Positions 1,700-22,824 of a stretch of 40,701 bases of DNA are shown in pieces. This DNA comes from a bacterium (GTDB lineage Bacteria > Armatimonadota > Zipacnadia > Zipacnadales > UBA11051), in the NCBI GenBank assembly GCA_021372615.1, contig JAJFUB010000023.1, forward strand, positions 1 to 40,701, written 5' to 3'. A model generated the notes under the pieces. It had not been told where the DNA came from. It was given only the letters and a program-made list of their open reading frames with translations, and made no database searches. A program made the position numbers and the translations under genes. Each line of letters starts with the position of its first letter. The stretch's first letter is position 1.

Positions 1700-2560
1700 A
1701 TGCGCAGCACCTGGTTGGCACTGATCGGGATCACACTGGCCTCCGCGGCCTCTGCGACCCCGTGGTTCACGCAGGACCCGCGCACCTTGCCCGCCGGCAA
1801 GTGGCGGGTGGAGGAGCACGTGCTGTACAGTCAGTTCAACGACGCGCTGGTGGACGACGAGCGGGAGCCGCTGAGCACGGCACAGGACTTCAGCGCCCTG
1901 ACGCTCCACACCCGCATCCGCTACGGCCTCCAGGACAACGTGACCGTGTTTGCGGACATCCCGTGGGTGTCCAAGCATGTCACGACGGCCAGCGGCTCGG
2001 CCCTGGACAATGACGACCTGGGCGACATCACGCTGCTGGTCAAGAGCAAGTACTATGACAACCGGGAGCAGCGGAGCCGCCGGGCCTGGGCGCTGTCGCT
2101 GAAGCTGGACACCGGCGACACGCGCGGCACGCCCGCCGCCCTGGCGACCGGTTCCGGCACGACGGACTGGTCGGTCATCCACCTGTGGGAGAAGGGTGTG
2201 GGCGACGCCACCTACTACGCCAGCACCGGCTTCACCATCACCGGCCGGCGCGGCGACCTGAACCGCAACCCCGGAGACGCCGTCTTCCTGAACGTGGCGG
2301 GCGAGCACCCCGTCGGTCACAGCCCGTGGAAGTTCGTGTGGGAGATGAACGGGCGCTACGAGGGCGAGACCAAGGGCGCCGAGGCGACTACCGGCGCGAC
2401 GACCGTGTCGCTCAGCCCCGGCGTGCAGTACGTCCGCCCGGGCAAGCAGGGGAAGCTGCTGCAGTTGGAGGCAGGCGTGCAGGTGCCCGCCCTGACCTGG
2501 GGCGATGCCCCGGCCATCCCCGACTACACGGCGTACGGCGGCGGCTTCATCGTTTTTTGA
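1700..2560 (+). CDS. Predicted outer-membrane beta-barrel transporter-like protein
   Basis: 286 aa. An N-terminal signal peptide (MRSTWLALIGITLASAASA, cleavage near residue 19) is followed by alternating short beta-strand-like stretches rich in Tyr, Trp, Thr and Gly. The last residue is Phe, a classic mark of outer-membrane barrels. The overall style (YGLQDNVTVFADIPW, then GDTRGTPAALATGSGTTDW) resembles the PF13557-type transporter/MetA-pathway barrel family, whose substrates are mostly unproven. The start is set by GAAAGGAAG at 1684-1692. It is third in the ArsR-rhodanese operon, so it probably moves or senses the compound controlled by that regulator. A bidirectional terminator follows at 2765-2795. 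An outer-membrane protein implies a didermic envelope. Confidence 0.82.
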   Translation: MRSTWLALIGITLASAASATPWFTQDPRTLPAGKWRVEEHVLYSQFNDALVDDEREPLSTAQDFSALTLHTRIRYGLQDNVTVFADIPWVSKHVTTASGSALDNDDLGDITLLVKSKYYDNREQRSRRAWALSLKLDTGDTRGTPAALATGSGTTDWSVIHLWEKGVGDATYYASTGFTITGRRGDLNRNPGDAVFLNVAGEHPVGHSPWKFVWEMNGRYEGETKGAEATTGATTVSLSPGVQYVRPGKQGKLLQLEAGVQVPALTWGDAPAIPDYTAYGGGFIVF

Positions 2561-2605
2561 GCGCCGCGCGGCCTGCTTGGGGCCTCGCCGGCTCTCAGAC
2601 AGGAC

Positions 2606-2632
2606 CAGTAGGGCAGGCGGCCTCGCCTGCCC
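2606..2632. repeat. Family A repeat, left half only
   Basis: Begins CAGTAGGGCAGGCGG and ends GCCTGCCC, an inverted repeat in itself. It matches the first 27 bases of the full copies at 2644, 11588 and 23843. It sits immediately before a full copy, so this intergenic stretch holds a tandem one-and-a-half unit. Confidence 0.75.
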
Positions 2633-2643
2633 GCGGATAGGAC

Positions 2644-2706
2644 CAGTAGGGCAGGCGGCCTCGCCTGCCCAGCCCCGAGGCGCGGGCGAGGCCGCCCGCG
2701 CTACTG
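2644..2706. repeat. Family A palindromic repeat, full copy
   Basis: About 63 bases made of two hairpins. The left begins CAGTAGGGCAGGCGG and ends GCCTGCCC. The right is GCGGGCGAGG, CCGCCCGCG, and ends CTACTG. The whole unit starts with CAGTAG and ends with its complement CTACTG. Full relatives lie at 11588-11651 and 23843-23902. I see no open frame in 2561-2825, which holds only repeats and a terminator. Confidence 0.82.
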
Positions 2707-2764
2707 TACAGCGCAGACGACGCCTGCAGACATCAAGTCACGGCGCCGCGCGATCTGGAGAAAC

Positions 2765-2795
2765 AGTGGGAGGGCCCAACCTGGGCCCTCCCACT
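2765..2795. terminator. Bidirectional hairpin terminator between convergent genes
   Basis: A perfect 14-bp stem (2765-2778 with 2782-2795) encloses the loop ACC. On the plus strand TTCGTT follows, and on the minus strand TGTTTC follows. It lies between the stop of the plus-strand barrel gene (2560) and the stop of the minus-strand lyase gene (2826), so it can end transcripts from both sides. The T-runs are short, so efficiency is uncertain. Confidence 0.72.
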
Positions 2796-2825
2796 TTCGT
2801 TCGCGTCCTCGGTTCGGCACGGCCC

Positions 2826-5800
2826 TTACGGCAGCGGCAGGACCACCAGGTTGCCGTCGCCCGTCGAGACCGCCAGCGCCGGACGGCCCTGCGCCTGACA
2901 GGCCACCATCTTGAGCACCGCAGCCTTCGCCGTGTACTGCGCGACCGGCTTGCCGTCGGCGGCATCCTGCACGCGGATCGAGCCATCTTCACAGCCCGCA
3001 GCCACGACGAGCTTGCCGCCGGCCTTCGCCAGCGCCAGCGTCTTGACCGGGCTGCCCAGGTCCTGCCGCCAGAGCATCTTGCCCGTCCCGTCCACGCAGT
3101 AGAGGTTGAACGAGAGCGACCCCACCAGCACCTCCGCCTTGCCATCCCCGTTCACATCCGCGCACTGCACCGCCTCGACCTCGTCGCCGGTGTTGAAGGT
3201 CCACAGGAGCTTGCCGGCTTCGGTGAGGGCATGGACCATCGTGTCAGCCCCGCCGAAGAAGACCTCCTGCTTGCCGTCGCCGTCCACATCGCCCGCCGCG
3301 GCCGCATTGGCCGTCGGGCCCTTGGTGTTGTAGCCGAAGCGCCGCGAGCCGTCGGGGTTGATGACATGCCACCAGTAGTACTCGGTGCCGGCGATGATCT
3401 CGTCCTTCTTGTCGCCGTCGAGGTCGGCGGCGGCGCCGGCGGTGGAGCCATGGACGCTCTCGTAGCGCCAGATCTGCTTGCCGGCCGCATCCACGGCGTA
3501 GTAGTGCCAGTTGTCCGCGCCTGCCACGACGGCTTGCTTGCCGTTGCCCTGCAGGTCCGCCGGGAGGACCACGCGGAAGTGCGCCGCCTCCTTGTAGAAC
3601 TGCGGGGTGAACACCCAGAGCTGCTTGCCCTGGCCGTCGAGGGCCACCAGCCGGGAGTTCATGCAGGCGGCGACGACCGTGCGCTTGCCGTCACCGGCGA
3701 AGTCCACGCCTGCCAGGGCGTTGACCGGCGCGCCGCAGTCGGTCTTCCACAGCAGCTTGCCCTCGCCGGTGAAGCAGGTCACGGTGCCATCGCTGCTCCC
3801 GGCCAGCAGCTCGTTGCTGCCGTCGCCGTTGAGGTCGGCCGTCTGCAGCGCCTGGAACATATGGGTCGGCACTCCAGCGGCCTGCTTCTTCGCCAGGTCA
3901 ATCTCCAGGCCCGGGCGGCTGCCCCAGAGCTGCAACTCGGCAACGTAGATGGCCGTGCCCGAACGCGGGGTCAGAGACAGCCGCAGTTGCTTCGCCTTGC
4001 CCGACAGCTCGAACGCATACGTCTCGGGCATGTGGGCCGGCAGGCCCCAGTTGGCGTGGTCGGCCGTGTCGGTCAGCTCAGCCAGCACGCGCCGGTCCGC
4101 CTTGAAGCCGTCATTGCTGCCCACAAGCTGCAGCTTGCCGAGCTGGAAGAGCTTGCCCTTGCTGGAGGAGGTCGCGAACCAGGCTTTCAGCACGAGGCGC
4201 TGCAGGTCGTAGACGTTGTCGAGGGCCAGGTCAATCGTGACCGGCTGGTCGTCGGCCCACATGACCCCGCCATCGGTGCTCAGCAGCTCACCGTCCACGA
4301 GGTTGTCCAGCGTGTTGGTCTTGTCCCCCGAGAAGACGTTCTGCGGCAGGGGCTCGGGGCTGCAGGACAGCTTCAGCCCGGCCTCGACCGCCTCGAAGGC
4401 GTTGGGGTTGTTGGTCAGCAGGTAGGAGGTGAGCTTCTGCGCGTACGACCACAGCGGCTGGAGAGCCGGGCCCTGTGTCGCGGCGCCACCCGCGGGCGCC
4501 GTGGGCGTGGCCGTGGCCACAGCCATGTTCATGAAGCCGCGGATCTCCTCGGCCGGGGCCTGGATGGGGCTGGTGGACCGGCTGACCTGCTGCTGGGTGC
4601 GCGGGCTCGTCCGCGCCGGGGTCTTCGCCACGATCTCACCGTTGGCCAGGTTCACCTCGGCATCGGCCCCCTCCGGGAACTTCCCCTGCCCGCCGAACAG
4701 GGCTGCATCGCGGACGCCCACGGCAATTCCCTTCTCCGGGGTGAACAGCGCCGCTCCCAGCGTCCCCTGCGCCTGGCCCAGCAGCGCAATGCGACCGTCC
4801 TTGTCCGGCAGGCCCACCATCACCGGGTCGCCTGCGCCCGAGATGACCGCCAGGTTGTCGCCCACGCGCGCGATCTTCAGTTGCGAGGGCTTGTCGCCCG
4901 AGGCCTGCAGGACGGTGAAGAGGTTGAACGTCTGCCCGGCCTGCAGGGACTTGTTGAACACGCTCTGCATCACCCGCACGACGGGCTTGCCGGCATACGG
5001 GTAGCTGGCCCAGTTCGCGCCGGTCAGCGCGTCATCGTCCAGCAGCACTCGGGCATCGGCCGTGGTCGCAAAGCGCGCCCACTGCCCGCCCTGCTCCACA
5101 TCCATGGCGCTGCCGTTGATCTTGGCGTTGCCGACGGTCTGCCAGATGGCGCGGAAGCTGTAGTCGCCCGCCTGCTTCGCCACCATCTGGTCGGCCACGA
5201 TGAACATCCGGTCCTTGAGCCAGATGATGTTGCGGCGCCAGTCCACGCCCGCGTAGTTGCGGTAGGTCGTCACCGACACGGCCGCCGAGGGCAGGTCGGT
5301 CACATGCTCCACCTCGACGAAGTCGGGGATGGTCGCCGACTGGCCGTCCTTGAGGATCAGCACCCCGTTGTGGTACTTGGGCAGGGACTTGATGTAGTCG
5401 GCGTCGGCGATCCAGACGCGCTCGTTCTGCGTCCACTGCAGCACCGCGTTGCCGTCCATGTGGCGGTGGCCGCCGTTGGACAGCCCGTCCAGCAGCAGGA
5501 AGGCCCGCTGGGGGTCGAAGCTGTCGCGGAAGGCGATCTTGTCGCAGGCATGGTCCAGCGTCACACCGCTCTTCTCTCCGCCGGCGGACTTGTACCAGTG
5601 CTCGTCGAGCGGGATCGCGTCGAAGGCGGCGAGGTCCGTGGGCTCTTTGGCGGTGCCGCCGGGATCGTACTCCCACAGCGGCCGGGACTGGCGCACCTGG
5701 AGCTTCTTGTCCACGCACCAGCGGTACGTGCCGTCGCGGTAGAACCACTCGGCCATGCGCAGCACGGGCAGCTCGCTGAACCAGCAGACCCACGCGCCGG

Positions 5801-7622
5801 TGTCGCCGTAGGGCACCTGGTAGCCCAGGTTGTTCATGGTCAGGATGGCATAGTTGGCGATGGTGCGGGCGTTGCCGTTCTCGAAGACGGCAAAGTTCGG
5901 CCGGGTCAGGGCGTAGCGCATGACGTGGCTGTTGGTGAGCCACTGGTAGCCGTTGCAGTCCTCGTGGGCCTTGGCGGTCTTGGCGAGGTTGCCGAAGCAG
6001 TTCTCCCCGATCTGCAGCCATTGCCGGGCCTCAGCCGAGTCGTAGTACTTGCTGAAGTATTCGCCGGCCAGGAAGGTGGCCAGGGCGGCGAAGGTGCCGT
6101 GGTTGGAGACCGAGTGGCCGGCCTTCGCGCTGGCGGCAGCGCCACTGCCCTCGGGCAGCGCGGCCTCCCGGACGTACTCAAACAGAATCCGGCTGACCTC
6201 GAGGCGGTCCTGGTCGGTCAGGGCGGGGGATTGCTCTACGCTGGCCCACATGGGGATGACGCGATGGCCCATGAAGTCCGAGTCCATGCCCCACGGCCCG
6301 CCGAAGGTCGTCGGCTTGCCGTCGCGCCACTGCTTGGCCTTGCGGGCCAGCCACACGAACTGCCTGGCGTACTCGTCGCGCCCGGTGACGATGTACTGCT
6401 CACCGATCGAGGACATCGTGCCGAGCAGGCCGGTGTGCGCCCCGGCTTCCAGCGCCTTCTGGGCGCTCTCCTGCTGGGCGGCGACCCACTTGTCATCGAG
6501 TTGGGCGTCGAAGGCGCCGAAGCGGGCGCGGGCCTCAGGGGAGGGCTGAACCTCGAGCAGGCGGGGCAGGACCACCGAGTCATCGGGCCCCGCCGACTTG
6601 GCCGCCGCCACTGCCTTCAGGAAGGCCGCAACACCAGCCTTGCCCCCGGCCGCGTCCGTGGCGCCGATGATCACGGCATTGCGCTTGTTGCCCCAGGGGT
6701 CGCTGAGGGTCCGCAGCTCATAGCCGCCGGCGCCGGGGAAGTTGCCGTCCGCGGTCATCATGTAGTGCGAGTATGGGTAGAGCATCGCCCGATTGTTGCC
6801 GACATTGCCCAGGAGCACGACATGGGTGGCCGGGGGCTTGAGGGCTTCAGGCCCATCACCTGCGGCCACCGGTGGCTTCTGGCCGAGGGCCTTCTCCAGC
6901 CCGGCGGCCAGCTCCGCGGCGACGGCCTGCCAGGCGGGGTCTGACGGAGCGACGATCGCGATCTGCAGGGCGCCCTTTTCAAGCAGCGGAGTCTGGCGCT
7001 GCAGCGGGTGGGCCTCTTTGGTATCCACGAACGATTTCACCTCACTGGGCACAAGGCGCAGATTGTCCAGATACAGATCGAACGGCACTCCCGGATCGTG
7101 GGCGCCGACATAGAACTCCCACTTGACGATGGCACGGCGGTCGTCGCTCTTGATGACCCCCGGCTCCCACTGCAGCGGCCCGAGGCTGACGCCGGGGGCC
7201 AGCTCAAAGGTGGTCTTGTCGCCCTTCAGCGGCCCGGCCCAGCTTAGCCAGCTCAGGACCGCATTGCCCTTCGCGTCATAGCCGCGCACGTAGAGCGCCT
7301 GGGTGATCTTGGGGTCGGTCGTCGCCGCCTCGAAGAGCAGCGCCTTGCCGCTCATGTCCACCGGGGCGGTCGTGAGGATGACGCTCAGGTACGAGTTGCC
7401 GGTGGCGTCCTTGGGCGAGACGGTGGAGGCGTGCAGGGCGCCCTTGCCCTCGGCGATGAACCGCGCGTCCTGGCTGATCTCCAGCTTCGTCTCGGGAGCC
7501 TTGCCCGCGTTCCCGACGGCCCAACCTGTCAGGGCGTCGCAGGTGCTCAGGGCCTGCGGCTGCGGCTGGGCCCCGGCCAGGGAGAGCGCGAGCAAGCCCG
7601 CGATGATGGCGAGTGTTCTCAT
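2826..7622 (-). CDS. Secreted multidomain heparinase II/III-like lyase with FG-GAP propeller
   Basis: 1598 aa. Signal peptide 1-18. Residues about 20-190 are a carbohydrate-binding-like beta-sandwich. About 210-340 resembles the N-terminal domain found before some glucuronidases and hexosaminidases. About 370-700 is an alpha-helical toroid of the alginate-lyase/heparinase type (SNHGTF near 507). About 700-990 is a heparinase II/III-like beta domain with GGHRHMDGNAVLQW near 720. An Ala/Pro/Thr-rich linker follows (about 995-1045), then an F5/8 type C-like domain (about 1090-1236). Last comes a propeller (1254-1598) with at least four calcium-binding FG-GAP-type loops such as DLNGDGSNE and DVDGDGKQE. 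It probably cleaves a uronic-acid-containing polysaccharide outside the cell. GGAGG sits six bases before the ATG at 7622. The longer frame to 7730 lacks a signal peptide and is rejected. The gene is last before the terminator at 2765-2795. Confidence 0.85.
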   Translation of the reverse strand: MRTLAIIAGLLALSLAGAQPQPQALSTCDALTGWAVGNAGKAPETKLEISQDARFIAEGKGALHASTVSPKDATGNSYLSVILTTAPVDMSGKALLFEAATTDPKITQALYVRGYDAKGNAVLSWLSWAGPLKGDKTTFELAPGVSLGPLQWEPGVIKSDDRRAIVKWEFYVGAHDPGVPFDLYLDNLRLVPSEVKSFVDTKEAHPLQRQTPLLEKGALQIAIVAPSDPAWQAVAAELAAGLEKALGQKPPVAAGDGPEALKPPATHVVLLGNVGNNRAMLYPYSHYMMTADGNFPGAGGYELRTLSDPWGNKRNAVIIGATDAAGGKAGVAAFLKAVAAAKSAGPDDSVVLPRLLEVQPSPEARARFGAFDAQLDDKWVAAQQESAQKALEAGAHTGLLGTMSSIGEQYIVTGRDEYARQFVWLARKAKQWRDGKPTTFGGPWGMDSDFMGHRVIPMWASVEQSPALTDQDRLEVSRILFEYVREAALPEGSGAAASAKAGHSVSNHGTFAALATFLAGEYFSKYYDSAEARQWLQIGENCFGNLAKTAKAHEDCNGYQWLTNSHVMRYALTRPNFAVFENGNARTIANYAILTMNNLGYQVPYGDTGAWVCWFSELPVLRMAEWFYRDGTYRWCVDKKLQVRQSRPLWEYDPGGTAKEPTDLAAFDAIPLDEHWYKSAGGEKSGVTLDHACDKIAFRDSFDPQRAFLLLDGLSNGGHRHMDGNAVLQWTQNERVWIADADYIKSLPKYHNGVLILKDGQSATIPDFVEVEHVTDLPSAAVSVTTYRNYAGVDWRRNIIWLKDRMFIVADQMVAKQAGDYSFRAIWQTVGNAKINGSAMDVEQGGQWARFATTADARVLLDDDALTGANWASYPYAGKPVVRVMQSVFNKSLQAGQTFNLFTVLQASGDKPSQLKIARVGDNLAVISGAGDPVMVGLPDKDGRIALLGQAQGTLGAALFTPEKGIAVGVRDAALFGGQGKFPEGADAEVNLANGEIVAKTPARTSPRTQQQVSRSTSPIQAPAEEIRGFMNMAVATATPTAPAGGAATQGPALQPLWSYAQKLTSYLLTNNPNAFEAVEAGLKLSCSPEPLPQNVFSGDKTNTLDNLVDGELLSTDGGVMWADDQPVTIDLALDNVYDLQRLVLKAWFATSSSKGKLFQLGKLQLVGSNDGFKADRRVLAELTDTADHANWGLPAHMPETYAFELSGKAKQLRLSLTPRSGTAIYVAELQLWGSRPGLEIDLAKKQAAGVPTHMFQALQTADLNGDGSNELLAGSSDGTVTCFTGEGKLLWKTDCGAPVNALAGVDFAGDGKRTVVAACMNSRLVALDGQGKQLWVFTPQFYKEAAHFRVVLPADLQGNGKQAVVAGADNWHYYAVDAAGKQIWRYESVHGSTAGAAADLDGDKKDEIIAGTEYYWWHVINPDGSRRFGYNTKGPTANAAAAGDVDGDGKQEVFFGGADTMVHALTEAGKLLWTFNTGDEVEAVQCADVNGDGKAEVLVGSLSFNLYCVDGTGKMLWRQDLGSPVKTLALAKAGGKLVVAAGCEDGSIRVQDAADGKPVAQYTAKAAVLKMVACQAQGRPALAVSTGDGNLVVLPLP

Positions 7623-7708
7623 GGTAGCCTCCGGCATTGTGCCTGTTCGGATTGCGCAGGAGTAGTTCCGCGCGGCGGGCGTCCGGCCCTGCCCGTGGTG
7701 GAACGGAA

Positions 7709-7736
7709 CAGGCCGTGGGGCGAACCCCACGGCCTG
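7709..7736 (-). terminator. Hairpin terminator after the minus-strand aminotransferase
   Basis: A perfect 12-bp stem (7709-7720 with 7725-7736) closes on a four-base loop that reads TTCG on the minus strand, a stable tetraloop. On that strand it is followed by TTCCGTT. It lies 42 bases beyond the stop of the aminotransferase gene (7779) and before the start of the lyase gene (7622), so it probably separates the two transcripts. Confidence 0.65.
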
Positions 7737-19729: not shown

Positions 19730-20902
19730 ATGAGCACCGACATCCCCCGCAACTACCCCGCGCTGCCGCCGCTGGGCGGCTGGTTCACCGACGAGGAAGT
19801 CCAGGCCGTCATGGAGACGCTACGTGACTCCATGGACTGGCGCACGGGCTTCGGCGGGCCCGAGATCGGCCAGTTCGAGGAGGCCTTCGCGGCCTACTGC
19901 GGGGTCGAGCACGCCATCGCCGTCAACTCCTGCGGCACAGGGCTGGACCTCGCCATGATGTGCCTGGACCTGCAGCCCGGCGATGAGGTCATCAGCCCCG
20001 CCATCACCTTCAAGGCGACCCACCAGGCGATTATCGGCCAGGGGGGCACGGTCGTCATGTGCGAGATTGACCCCGCGACCTTCAACGTGGACGTGGCCGA
20101 TGTCGAGCGGCGCCTCACGCCGCGCACGCGGGCCATCCTCGCGGTCCACAACAACGGCCTGTCGGTGTTCATGGATGAGCTGGAGGCCGTCGCGGCGGCC
20201 CATCCGCACCCCACCTACGGCCCGGCGAAGGTCATCGGCGACGCCGCCCGGGCCTGCGGCGCAGGCTACAAGGGCACGAAAGTGGGGAAGATGGGCTGGA
20301 TGAACGTCTTCAGCTTCCAGACCAGCAAGAACATGACCACGCTCGGCGAGGGCGGGATGATCACCACCGATGACCCCGAGGTGGCCCGTCGCGCGCGGGC
20401 ACACCGCTCGTTCGGCGCCGGGGACATGTTCTGGGGCACGAACTACCGCATGATCCGGCTGCAGGGCGCCGTCGGGTTGGTGCAGTTGCGCCGCCTGGAC
20501 GAGATGAACGACCGGCGGCGCGACCGGGCGCACAACCTCAGCCGGCTGTTGCGCGGCCTCCCCGAGCTGACGCTGCCGACCGAGCCGCCGGACTGCCGGC
20601 ACATCTACTACGGCTACACGGTGATGGTGCCGGAGGACTGGGCGGGGGAGAAGCGGCAGAAGCTGATGGACTGGGTCGGCGCCCGCGGCGTCGGCACGGT
20701 CGTGATGAATGACTGCACCTGGACCTTCGACCCGTATATCGCCTCGCTGGGCTACGACGGGGCCGACACGCCCGTCAGCGTCCTCACCGGCAAGCGCCTG
20801 TTCTGCCTCAGCCTCCACCCGCTGATGACCGACGACGACCAGGAGTACATCGCCCGGACGATGGCCGAGGGGGTCGAGGCGGTGAAGTCCGGTGAAGCCT
20901 GA
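19730..20902 (+). CDS. DegT/DnrJ/EryC1/StrS-family PLP aminotransferase (second copy)
   Basis: 390 aa. VNSCGTGLDLAMM (about 65-77) is the phosphate-binding region, VIGDAARACGAGYKG supplies the ring-binding Asp171, and FQTSKNMTTLGEGG carries the predicted Schiff-base Lys200. It most likely transaminates a keto sugar or keto-cyclitol with glutamate or glutamine as donor. It is clearly diverged from the 424-aa paralogue at 7779-9053, so the substrates may differ. GGGGAGGG at 19716-19723 sets the ATG at 19730. Its stop overlaps the next gene by 11 bases, showing translational coupling with the NodB-like gene. The oxidoreductase two genes downstream could supply the keto substrate, a common pairing in amino-sugar and aminocyclitol pathways. 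Confidence 0.92.
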   Translation: MSTDIPRNYPALPPLGGWFTDEEVQAVMETLRDSMDWRTGFGGPEIGQFEEAFAAYCGVEHAIAVNSCGTGLDLAMMCLDLQPGDEVISPAITFKATHQAIIGQGGTVVMCEIDPATFNVDVADVERRLTPRTRAILAVHNNGLSVFMDELEAVAAAHPHPTYGPAKVIGDAARACGAGYKGTKVGKMGWMNVFSFQTSKNMTTLGEGGMITTDDPEVARRARAHRSFGAGDMFWGTNYRMIRLQGAVGLVQLRRLDEMNDRRRDRAHNLSRLLRGLPELTLPTEPPDCRHIYYGYTVMVPEDWAGEKRQKLMDWVGARGVGTVVMNDCTWTFDPYIASLGYDGADTPVSVLTGKRLFCLSLHPLMTDDDQEYIARTMAEGVEAVKSGEA

Positions 20903-22790
20903 CCCCATCGCGGCAGTAGTGCGGGCTTCCAGCCCGCCCGTGCTGCTCGTCACCGCCGCCGATGAGCAGCACCCGTTCGACGACTACCTGGCCGAGGTGT
21001 TGCTGACCGAGGGGTATGCGTGCTTCGCGTGGTGGGGTCTGTCCCCGGAGGGTTGGCGCCAGCCAACCCGCAGGGGACTGACCCCAGGAGGAGATGGCGA
21101 TGGGGTCAGCCCCCTGCAGACCGGCTCCGCCGGCCTTCCGGGGACAGACCCCGACTCGCGGACAGACCCCGCCCCTTCCCTCCTCATCCTCGGCGCTGGC
21201 GCCGCCGCTCAGACCCCCGTGGAGGAGGTTGAGGCGTACCTGCGCCGCGGCGGCAAGATGATCGTCATGCGGCCGCCCGACTCCTGGGCGCCGCTGCTGG
21301 GCCTGGCCGTGCCGGGCGAGCTGTACCGCACCGCGCCCGATGCGTACCTGCATGTCAACACGGACCACCCGTGGCTGCAGGGCTTCCCCGAAGGCGACCT
21401 GCAGTGTCCCGGCGAGAGCCGCGTGTTCCGCGCCGAGGGGGCCGAGCCGCTGGCCTTCATCGCCGGGCAGCTGGGCATGCCCTCGATCTTCCCCGCCGTG
21501 TCTCACCACCGCGTGGGCGAGGGCGAAGTCGTCACCTTCACCTACGACCTCCCCGAGACCCTCGTGCTCTTCCAGCAAGGCCGAGCGGAGAACTCCAGCA
21601 CCGGCCGCAACCCTGACGCCAACCGCGACGGGAAGTTCTGCGCCGATGACGCCATGACGGCGATGCGCGACTACCGGCTGCGGTTCGTCCCGCAGGCCGA
21701 CGTGCACCGCGACCTGCTGGTGCGCGTGATCCGGGGCCTGCTGGGAGACACGCTGCCCCTGCCACGCCTGTGGCACTTCCCCGACGCCGCGCCCGCCGTG
21801 CTGTTCGTGGATGGCGACGGCGACAGCATGATCTGGGACGACCTCGAAGTCACGGTCGCGATGGCCGCGGAACAGGGCTACCCGTACACGCTCTACATGA
21901 TGCGCGCGGAGATCGAGGCCTTCGACCGAGAGGCCGTGCTCGCGCTGCGCGACCGGGGCTTCGCGTTCGGCGTGCACCCCTGGTGCGGGCCGCGGCCGAC
22001 CATCGAACAGTGGGAGACGGAGATCGGCGAGATCGTCGCGGTGTTCACCGAGAAGTTCGGCTTCGCACCGACCAGCCTGCGCTCCCATTCGTGCATCTTC
22101 CCCGGCTGGGACGAGCATCCCGACATCATCCGTCGGCACGGCCTGCGGCTGGACACCAACCTCGCACCCGGCTATCGCTACCGGGACGGCTACCCCAATG
22201 GCAGCGGCCTGCCGCTGCGCTTCGTGGACCGGGCCGGGCAGATCGTGGACTGCTGGGAGCAGAGCACGATCCAGACCGAGGACGGGGCGCTGACGCCGAA
22301 GGTGCTGCTGCCGCCGCTGACACGCGAGGAGGCGCTGGTGCTCGCCCGGTCCATGCTGCAGCGCGCCGCGGCAACCTACCACAACGTCTTCCACCCTTAC
22401 TTCCACCCCATCAATCTCGGCGAGCGCGGGGCGCGAGTGGCCGCCTGGTTCCGCGGCGTGCTGCGCGAGGCGCGCGACCTGGGCCTGCCCGGCGTCAATG
22501 CCTCCGAGTGGCTGGCCTTCAACGACGCGCGGATGGGTGTGCGCTGCGAGGATGTTCGCTGGGACGCCGCGGGCCGCGAGTTGTCCTTCACCGTCAGCAG
22601 CCCGGCGCCCCTCGACGGCGCGACCATCCTGCTGCCGCCGTGCGGCGGCTTGATCCCGGTGCAGGCCATGGTCGGGGGCAACGAGGCGGAGCTGGAGCCC
22701 GTAGACCTGGAGCGATCCGACTGGACAGCGCTGGTGCTCGACCTGCCGCCACAGGGCCGCCTGTCGGTCAGCATCCGGTATGAAGCATAA
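20892..22790 (+). CDS. Polysaccharide-deacetylase-like (NodB-fold) protein carrying an in-frame repeat insertion
   Basis: 632 aa, no signal peptide. Residues 17-46 (VLLVTAADEQHPFDDYLAEV) begin a Rossmann or glutaminase-like domain that resumes near residue 95 (LLILGAG, then RRGGKMIVMRPP). The stretch between, residues 48-87, is encoded by the palindromic repeat at 21034-21152 and is rich in Gly, Pro and Thr. Residues about 300-560 resemble the NodB deacetylase barrel: LFVDGDGDSMIWDD near 303, FGVHPWCGPRP near 360 and SLRSHSCIFPGW near 397. The standard TFDDG and HxxxH motifs are altered, so activity is uncertain. A beta domain ends the protein. The start is GTG 20892, inside the preceding gene. 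An in-frame GTG at 20940 would exclude the family B repeat but has no ribosome site. Probably acts on an amino-sugar-type substrate with the flanking enzymes. Confidence 0.8.
   Translation: MKPDPIAAVVRASSPPVLLVTAADEQHPFDDYLAEVLLTEGYACFAWWGLSPEGWRQPTRRGLTPGGDGDGVSPLQTGSAGLPGTDPDSRTDPAPSLLILGAGAAAQTPVEEVEAYLRRGGKMIVMRPPDSWAPLLGLAVPGELYRTAPDAYLHVNTDHPWLQGFPEGDLQCPGESRVFRAEGAEPLAFIAGQLGMPSIFPAVSHHRVGEGEVVTFTYDLPETLVLFQQGRAENSSTGRNPDANRDGKFCADDAMTAMRDYRLRFVPQADVHRDLLVRVIRGLLGDTLPLPRLWHFPDAAPAVLFVDGDGDSMIWDDLEVTVAMAAEQGYPYTLYMMRAEIEAFDREAVLALRDRGFAFGVHPWCGPRPTIEQWETEIGEIVAVFTEKFGFAPTSLRSHSCIFPGWDEHPDIIRRHGLRLDTNLAPGYRYRDGYPNGSGLPLRFVDRAGQIVDCWEQSTIQTEDGALTPKVLLPPLTREEALVLARSMLQRAAATYHNVFHPYFHPINLGERGARVAAWFRGVLREARDLGLPGVNASEWLAFNDARMGVRCEDVRWDAAGRELSFTVSSPAPLDGATILLPPCGGLIPVQAMVGGNEAELEPVDLERSDWTALVLDLPPQGRLSVSIRYEA
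20913..20937 (-). repeat. Family B repeat inside the start of a coding gene
   Basis: GCAGTAGTGCGGGCTTCCAG followed by CCCGC is, in reverse, nearly the same as the intergenic repeat at 128-152. It is translated as part of residues 8-16 (VVRASSPP) of the NodB-like protein if the GTG at 20892 is the true start. Confidence 0.65.
21034..21152. repeat. Nested palindromic repeat within a gene (family C)
   Basis: About 119 bases of nested inverted repeats. The outer arms are GGGGTCTGTCCCCGG and CCGGGGACAGACCCC. Inner arms are CAGGGGACTGACCCC and GGGGTCAGCCCCCTG (one mismatch). Small side hairpins are GTTGGC/GCCAAC (21052-21067) and CCGGC/GCCGG. It is fully open in the reading frame of the NodB-like gene. 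A short copy of the same motif lies 3.6 adjacent genes-widths downstream in intergenic DNA at 22796-22824. Confidence 0.85.
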
Positions 22791-22795
22791 CCCAA

Positions 22796-22824
22796 GGGGT
22801 CTGTCCCCGCAGGGGGCTGACCCC
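22796..22824. repeat. Short intergenic copy of family C
   Basis: GGGGTCTGTCCCC, GCAGG, then GGGCTGACCCC combines the outer and inner arm motifs of the repeat at 21034-21152. It lies 5 bases after the NodB-like stop and 27 bases before the oxidoreductase ATG. Confidence 0.75.

Follow-up and report, generated by a model that had tools for sequence, protein, structure and literature searches.

A probably mobile, REPIN-like palindrome lies in frame in genes of an Armatimonadota genome that also encodes a repeat-flanked candidate transposase

Palindromic elements that lie in frame within genes have been published for enterobacteria, where both ERIC and YPAL elements are involved (PMC2229807). Intragenic GTAG and CGTC REPs are on record from several phyla in the study by Di Nocera and colleagues (2013, PMC3733652); the consulted passages on intragenic repeats deal with these two families and not with the TIR families. 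The same study gives GGGGWSAS as the signature of TIRtrons, or TIRYT repeats, which were later assigned mostly to TnpA-REP subclass 2.1 (PMC6006769). An earlier note on the DNA studied here had described such elements as known in Rickettsia and, to its knowledge, undescribed in this type of bacterium. The first part was too narrow, given the cases published outside Rickettsia (PMC2229807, PMC3733652). The second part stands, in that a literature search found no report of such repeats for Armatimonadota.

The window analyzed here is a whole stretch of 40,701 nt (contig JAJFUB010000023.1 of assembly GCA_021372615.1); its repeat features are collected in Table 1. The earlier note had described about 119 bases of nested inverted repeats and a related short copy downstream, and all of its repeat coordinates are correct. 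The 119 nt resolve into two inverted units, and the short copy is a unit without the inner hairpin. In the consensus of 55 units the layout is GGGGTCTGTCCCC, a GC-rich hairpin, and GGGG(G/A)CTGACCCC. Folded as single-stranded DNA, the 119 nt reach -54.1 kcal/mol, a value that none of 200 dinucleotide shuffles attains (-27.1 +/- 3.05; z -8.85). Outer boxes adjoin 11 of the 55 units and 0 of 55 control positions, so the window element probably includes the decayed outer box and ends at 21170, for a total of 137 nt.

Table 1. Coordinates of the host gene, the repeat features of the window, and the candidate transposase gene
Feature	Position	Strand	Remarks
Host gene	20892..22790	+	Open frame; 632-aa protein, C-terminal part weakly polysaccharide-deacetylase-like, insert in N-terminal domain
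Complete inverted repeat doublet (REPIN/BIME-like)	21034..21152	+	In-frame residues 48-87, WGLSPEGWRQPTRRGLTPGGDGDGVSPLQTGSAGLPGTDP; based on sequence and fold (z -8.85)
Repeat unit 1	21034..21085	+	GGGGTCTGTCCCC, hairpin, GGGGACTGACCCC; agrees with consensus of 55 units
Spacer (loop) separating units 1 and 2, 16 nt	21086..21101	+	
Repeat unit 2, inverted	21102..21152	-	Design as unit 1
Decayed outer box	21158..21170	-	12 of 13 bases; 18 nt off inner box
Short single unit in intergenic gap	22796..22824	+	Two boxes, inner hairpin absent; 5 nt 3' of host-gene stop codon
RAYT gene, 212 aa	3096-3734 (L107, contig C154)		Flanking inverted units 3044-3094 and 3757-3808, immediately on both sides

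The repeat is dispersed through the genome. The search for further units that the earlier note had proposed returned 101 GGGGWCWGWCCCC boxes in the 6.41-Mb genome and 0 for the reversed-pattern control; a lack of relatives elsewhere, which the note named as telling against its reading, was not found. There are 85 copies of GGGGTCTGTCCCC and 76 of GGGGGCTGACCCC. GGGGTCTGTCCCC occurs only 0-2 times in each of 60 relatives, and the expansion is therefore specific to this lineage. From the fetched sites we identified 68 repeat clusters, mostly inverted pairs of 95-130 nt, in which the units share the nested design and measure 47-54 nt. Across 55 full units the boxes are nearly invariant and the inner stems variable, with 47 different 5' arms. 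These stems pair with their own partner at 6.6 of 8 bases, compared with 4.6 of 8 for swapped partners. What is conserved is the structure, where the sequence varies.

A candidate for the mobilizing enzyme is encoded in the same genome. Among seven Y1_Tnp ORFs, only one, on contig C154, is flanked by the repeat. Its product carries the HUH motif (HVH, within HVHLV) and YVERNP (within YVERNPVRAG), and matches the NCBIfam model REP_Tyr_transpos at E 1.5e-20 with a score of 73.5, slightly under the curated cut-off of 80. Y1_Tnp was the sole domain found by Pfam, which detected no C-terminal helix-turn-helix (Bac_DnaA_C, HTH_23 or HTH_28), and a PDB sequence search gave no match. Both GGGGTCAG and GGGGACAG, which fit GGGGWSAS, are present on both flanks of the gene, and in related genomes RAYT homologues are bordered by inverted repeats whose motifs resemble GGGGACAG or GGGGTCAG. 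The 55 units have no conserved GTAG or CGTC tag beside them, and their 5' flank preferences are weak. A second RAYT-like gene (L019/L112, G000:C125 10249-10857) has another motif, TATTTTGGGGACACCATACTT, on its flanks, in tandem copies of inverted orientation.

The C154 RAYT gene lies between two inverted copies of the repeat, which makes a RAYT-mobilized REPIN/BIME the most likely identity of the element. We consider it very probable that the 119-137 nt in the window are one copy of a mobile palindrome that is non-autonomous, specific to the lineage and made of two inverted REP-like units (REPIN/BIME type), and that this copy was inserted into the gene and is translated with it. Mobilization would probably be the work of the C154 RAYT, acting on the palindrome in the form of a folded single strand.

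The host frame is open across the element, as the earlier note had read it, with the repeat at the residues given there (about 48-87). Where the window protein has 50 residues at the insert site, eight homologues have 13-18; the alignment of homologues that the note had called for thus revealed none with the same insert. Upstream of the insert, residues 14-46 share 58-67% identity with homologues in the same frame. Matches to the host protein occur in 21 of the 61 genomes searched (its own genome counted), with a best identity of 54%. No empty site was found at the DNA level in a close relative, the nearest homologue being the one at 54% protein identity. A scan of contigs with the single protein as query gave no match; with an alignment as query it gave eight relatives, labelled Armatimonadetes / Candidatus Zipacnadia and, in one case, Pirellulales, so that the DNA is probably from an Armatimonadota MAG.

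The description of the host as NodB-like fits weakly. A Pfam search of the window protein at E 0.001 gave no match, and PF01522 was found in five of six aligned proteins (best E 4e-4), the window protein being the exception. A host-family profile matched deacetylases in the PDB at E 0.003. The insert sits in the other, N-terminal domain.

It could be asked whether the part of the gene that carries the repeat is translated at all. At the insert the window protein has lost the linker and a portion of a predicted helix, both of which its homologues retain, and GTG and ATG codons are present downstream of the element, so that translation might start beyond it or the gene might be decaying. This is very unlikely, given that residues 14-46 are conserved in frame upstream of the element and the frame remains open. 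Moreover, the inserts of a GlcD-like oxidase, a sulfatase and a TsaB-RimI fusion lie deep in their proteins, where a downstream start could not help. Under the preferred reading, a translated insertion, the element would have landed in a surface-type linker within the N-terminal domain, where it took the place of part of the linker sequence. Assembly error as the cause would require independent occurrence in many genes.

For gene calling we used a home-made ORF caller that relies on codon usage learned from this genome and can err at single loci. At window positions 2505-7730, which hold two very long overlapping antisense ORFs of 1479 aa (+) and 1634 aa (-), it favors the minus strand. Relative to the called genes, 45 of the 68 clusters are intergenic, 11 lie at gene edges, and 12 lie within open genes that have coding signal on both sides. 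The in-gene share (18%) compares with 90% coding in the fetched DNA (p about 1e-45); genes are strongly avoided by the repeat. The gene pairs that flank clusters are unidirectional in 44 cases, convergent in 11 and divergent in none (n=55), versus 222, 37 and 35, respectively, for all gene pairs (n=294). Intergenic copies lie a median of 6.5 nt 3' of the upstream stop. At several gene 3' ends (L054, L069, L075, L083, L093, L104 and L109) units overlap the gene and provide its stop codon and last residues. A full doublet (L064 2979-3085) lies between genes with ATP synthase alpha/beta and gamma-type domains, and core-gene operon junctions therefore tolerate the repeat.

No single gene split in two by the repeat was found at the nine junctions where both neighbors were scanned. 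The strong nested hairpin within a coding region could suggest that the element is skipped, either by removal from the RNA or by ribosomal bypass like that of mitochondrial byp elements. An open frame would be unnecessary for skipping, yet the in-gene copies are open in the frame of their own gene; at none of the nine sampled junctions has a stop or frameshift divided a gene, and intron or intein features are lacking. We regard skipping as extremely improbable. If copies are instead inserted and translated, those that break genes would have been lost by selection.

Homologues lacking the extra peptide were identified for other decorated genes. The GlcD-like oxidase (L062) gains 28 aa at the repeat, and exactly these 28 residues are absent from 11 homologues. 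The sulfatase (L087) gains 30 aa that nine homologues are without. The TsaB-RimI fusion (L068, G000:C40) gains about 34 aa, which are missing from one homologue, in G001, a relative of the same family (L126). In most other genomes of the order, TsaB and RimI are separate neighbors. That the repeat created the fusion was considered and rejected, since G001 has the fusion without the repeat. TsaB is essential in most bacteria, and a search of this genome yielded no second TsaB; the decorated TsaB-RimI protein is therefore presumably functional.

Other copies are less simple. In MtaB (L099) a single unit takes up a variable loop and adds just 4 to 9 residues net; this case was downgraded as a plain insertion. 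The DUF1638-hydantoinase fusion (L106) was downgraded as a proven insertion, since its boxes are scattered in a low-complexity linker and the G001 protein has equal total length. The G001 linker (loci compared: L106 2906-3072, G000:C150, and L178) holds another repeat-like peptide, VSDPD...ISDPD; palindromes may have given rise to linkers more than once. Six further loci (L063, L066, L071, L095, L102 and L110) were counted as in-gene on the basis of an open frame and flanking coding signal. Overall, the core of the earlier note has held up: an in-frame palindrome adds a peptide to one domain of the window protein, the homologues are without the peptide, and the repeat is dispersed and in frame in about a dozen genes.

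The net gain is smaller than the element in every case tested against homologues, by about 14-40 nt. This points to replacement or loss of target sequence on insertion. Such replacement would explain how elements of all lengths modulo 3 can be in frame. Copies with an open frame and a compatible total length would persist and be translated as flexible Gly/Pro/Asp-rich loops. We infer that the inserts are translated in the cell and that the peptides are neutral.

The earlier note had left it that the repeat either evolved to be translatable or happens to be so. Copies are open in 65% of frames, compared with 70% for composition-matched shuffled sequence, so that only the second alternative stands; evolved translatability was rejected. 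The element is translatable because high GC makes stop codons rare, and not through adaptation. The count of in-gene copies and their frames that the note had proposed shows that one frame (RGLSP...GADP) is used by 9 of the 12 (p 0.004, post hoc), even though the three frames do not differ in openness among intergenic copies. This bias is the one hint of selection or targeting. Copies also lie between or beside domains in TsaB-RimI, MtaB and L095. Both observations would be expected if the repeats had been recruited as useful linkers, with the peptides or the frame under positive selection. However, the fusion in G001 indicates that the repeat is not needed for joining the domains, the peptides vary widely, the genes are unrelated, and all 12 in-gene inserts have negative codon scores; we give recruitment very little credence. 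A broader proposal, which we think unlikely, is that a GGGGWSAS-type RAYT repeat serves as a genome-wide source of in-frame linkers, with a biased frame, 10-40 nt of target replaced (which allows the frame to be preserved), and some peptides now part of functional proteins (the only TsaB found being the example).

We know of no transposase identified for the Rickettsia elements, and the spread of coding palindromes is therefore directly testable in this bacterium. One genome holds the repeat together with its candidate transposase and roughly a dozen conserved proteins that the repeat decorates. Both the processing of the repeat by the RAYT and the function of TsaB-RimI, GlcD and the sulfatase with the peptide are open to test. 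Translated palindromes extend beyond both Rickettsia and the GTAG/CGTC REPs. What is new here is the GGGGWSAS type of the repeat, its high in-gene share, and the candidate transposase in the same genome. For annotators there is also a warning: where proteins of this lineage show an indel of about 100 nt, the cause can be mobile DNA.

Judged by its motifs, the repeat is closest to the GGGGWSAS TIRtrons. Like those of PMC3733652, it fits GGGGWSAS in GGGGTCAG and GGGGACAG, flanks a RAYT-like tyrosine transposase as inverted repeats, and forms dimers and dispersed families; unlike them, each of its units has two boxes separated by a hairpin, and about 100 boxes are present. We describe it as closest to TIRtrons rather than file it as a member, because the C-terminal helix-turn-helix reported for TnpA-REP subclass 2.1 (PMC6006769) was not detected by Pfam in the C154 RAYT. 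REP/BIME and REPIN elements (PMC3116915, PMC8266576, PMC2817692) are likewise one-hairpin inverted doublets that are dispersed, mostly extragenic, kept out of divergent promoters, and associated with a repeat-flanked RAYT, but here the GTAG tag is absent and the nested units are larger (47-54 nt). In Pseudomonas fluorescens SBW25, 14 of 1,067 invariant 16-mers overlap genes (PMC3116915), versus 18% of clusters here. RPE and other coding palindromes (PMC10969869, PMC2229807) resemble the repeat in their length of 100-150 bp and in their in-frame insertion into genes that are unrelated and in many cases conserved, where the extra peptide is tolerated. They differ in phylum and probably in sequence, and a repeat-flanked candidate transposase is present here. 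The intragenic GTAG/CGTC REPs of O. terrae, Thauera, R. conorii and others (PMC3733652) also occur as monomers and dimers that encode 20-80 residues in conserved proteins. They belong to another repeat superfamily, and their targets are often replication and repair genes, whereas those of the present repeat are metabolic and tRNA-modification genes.
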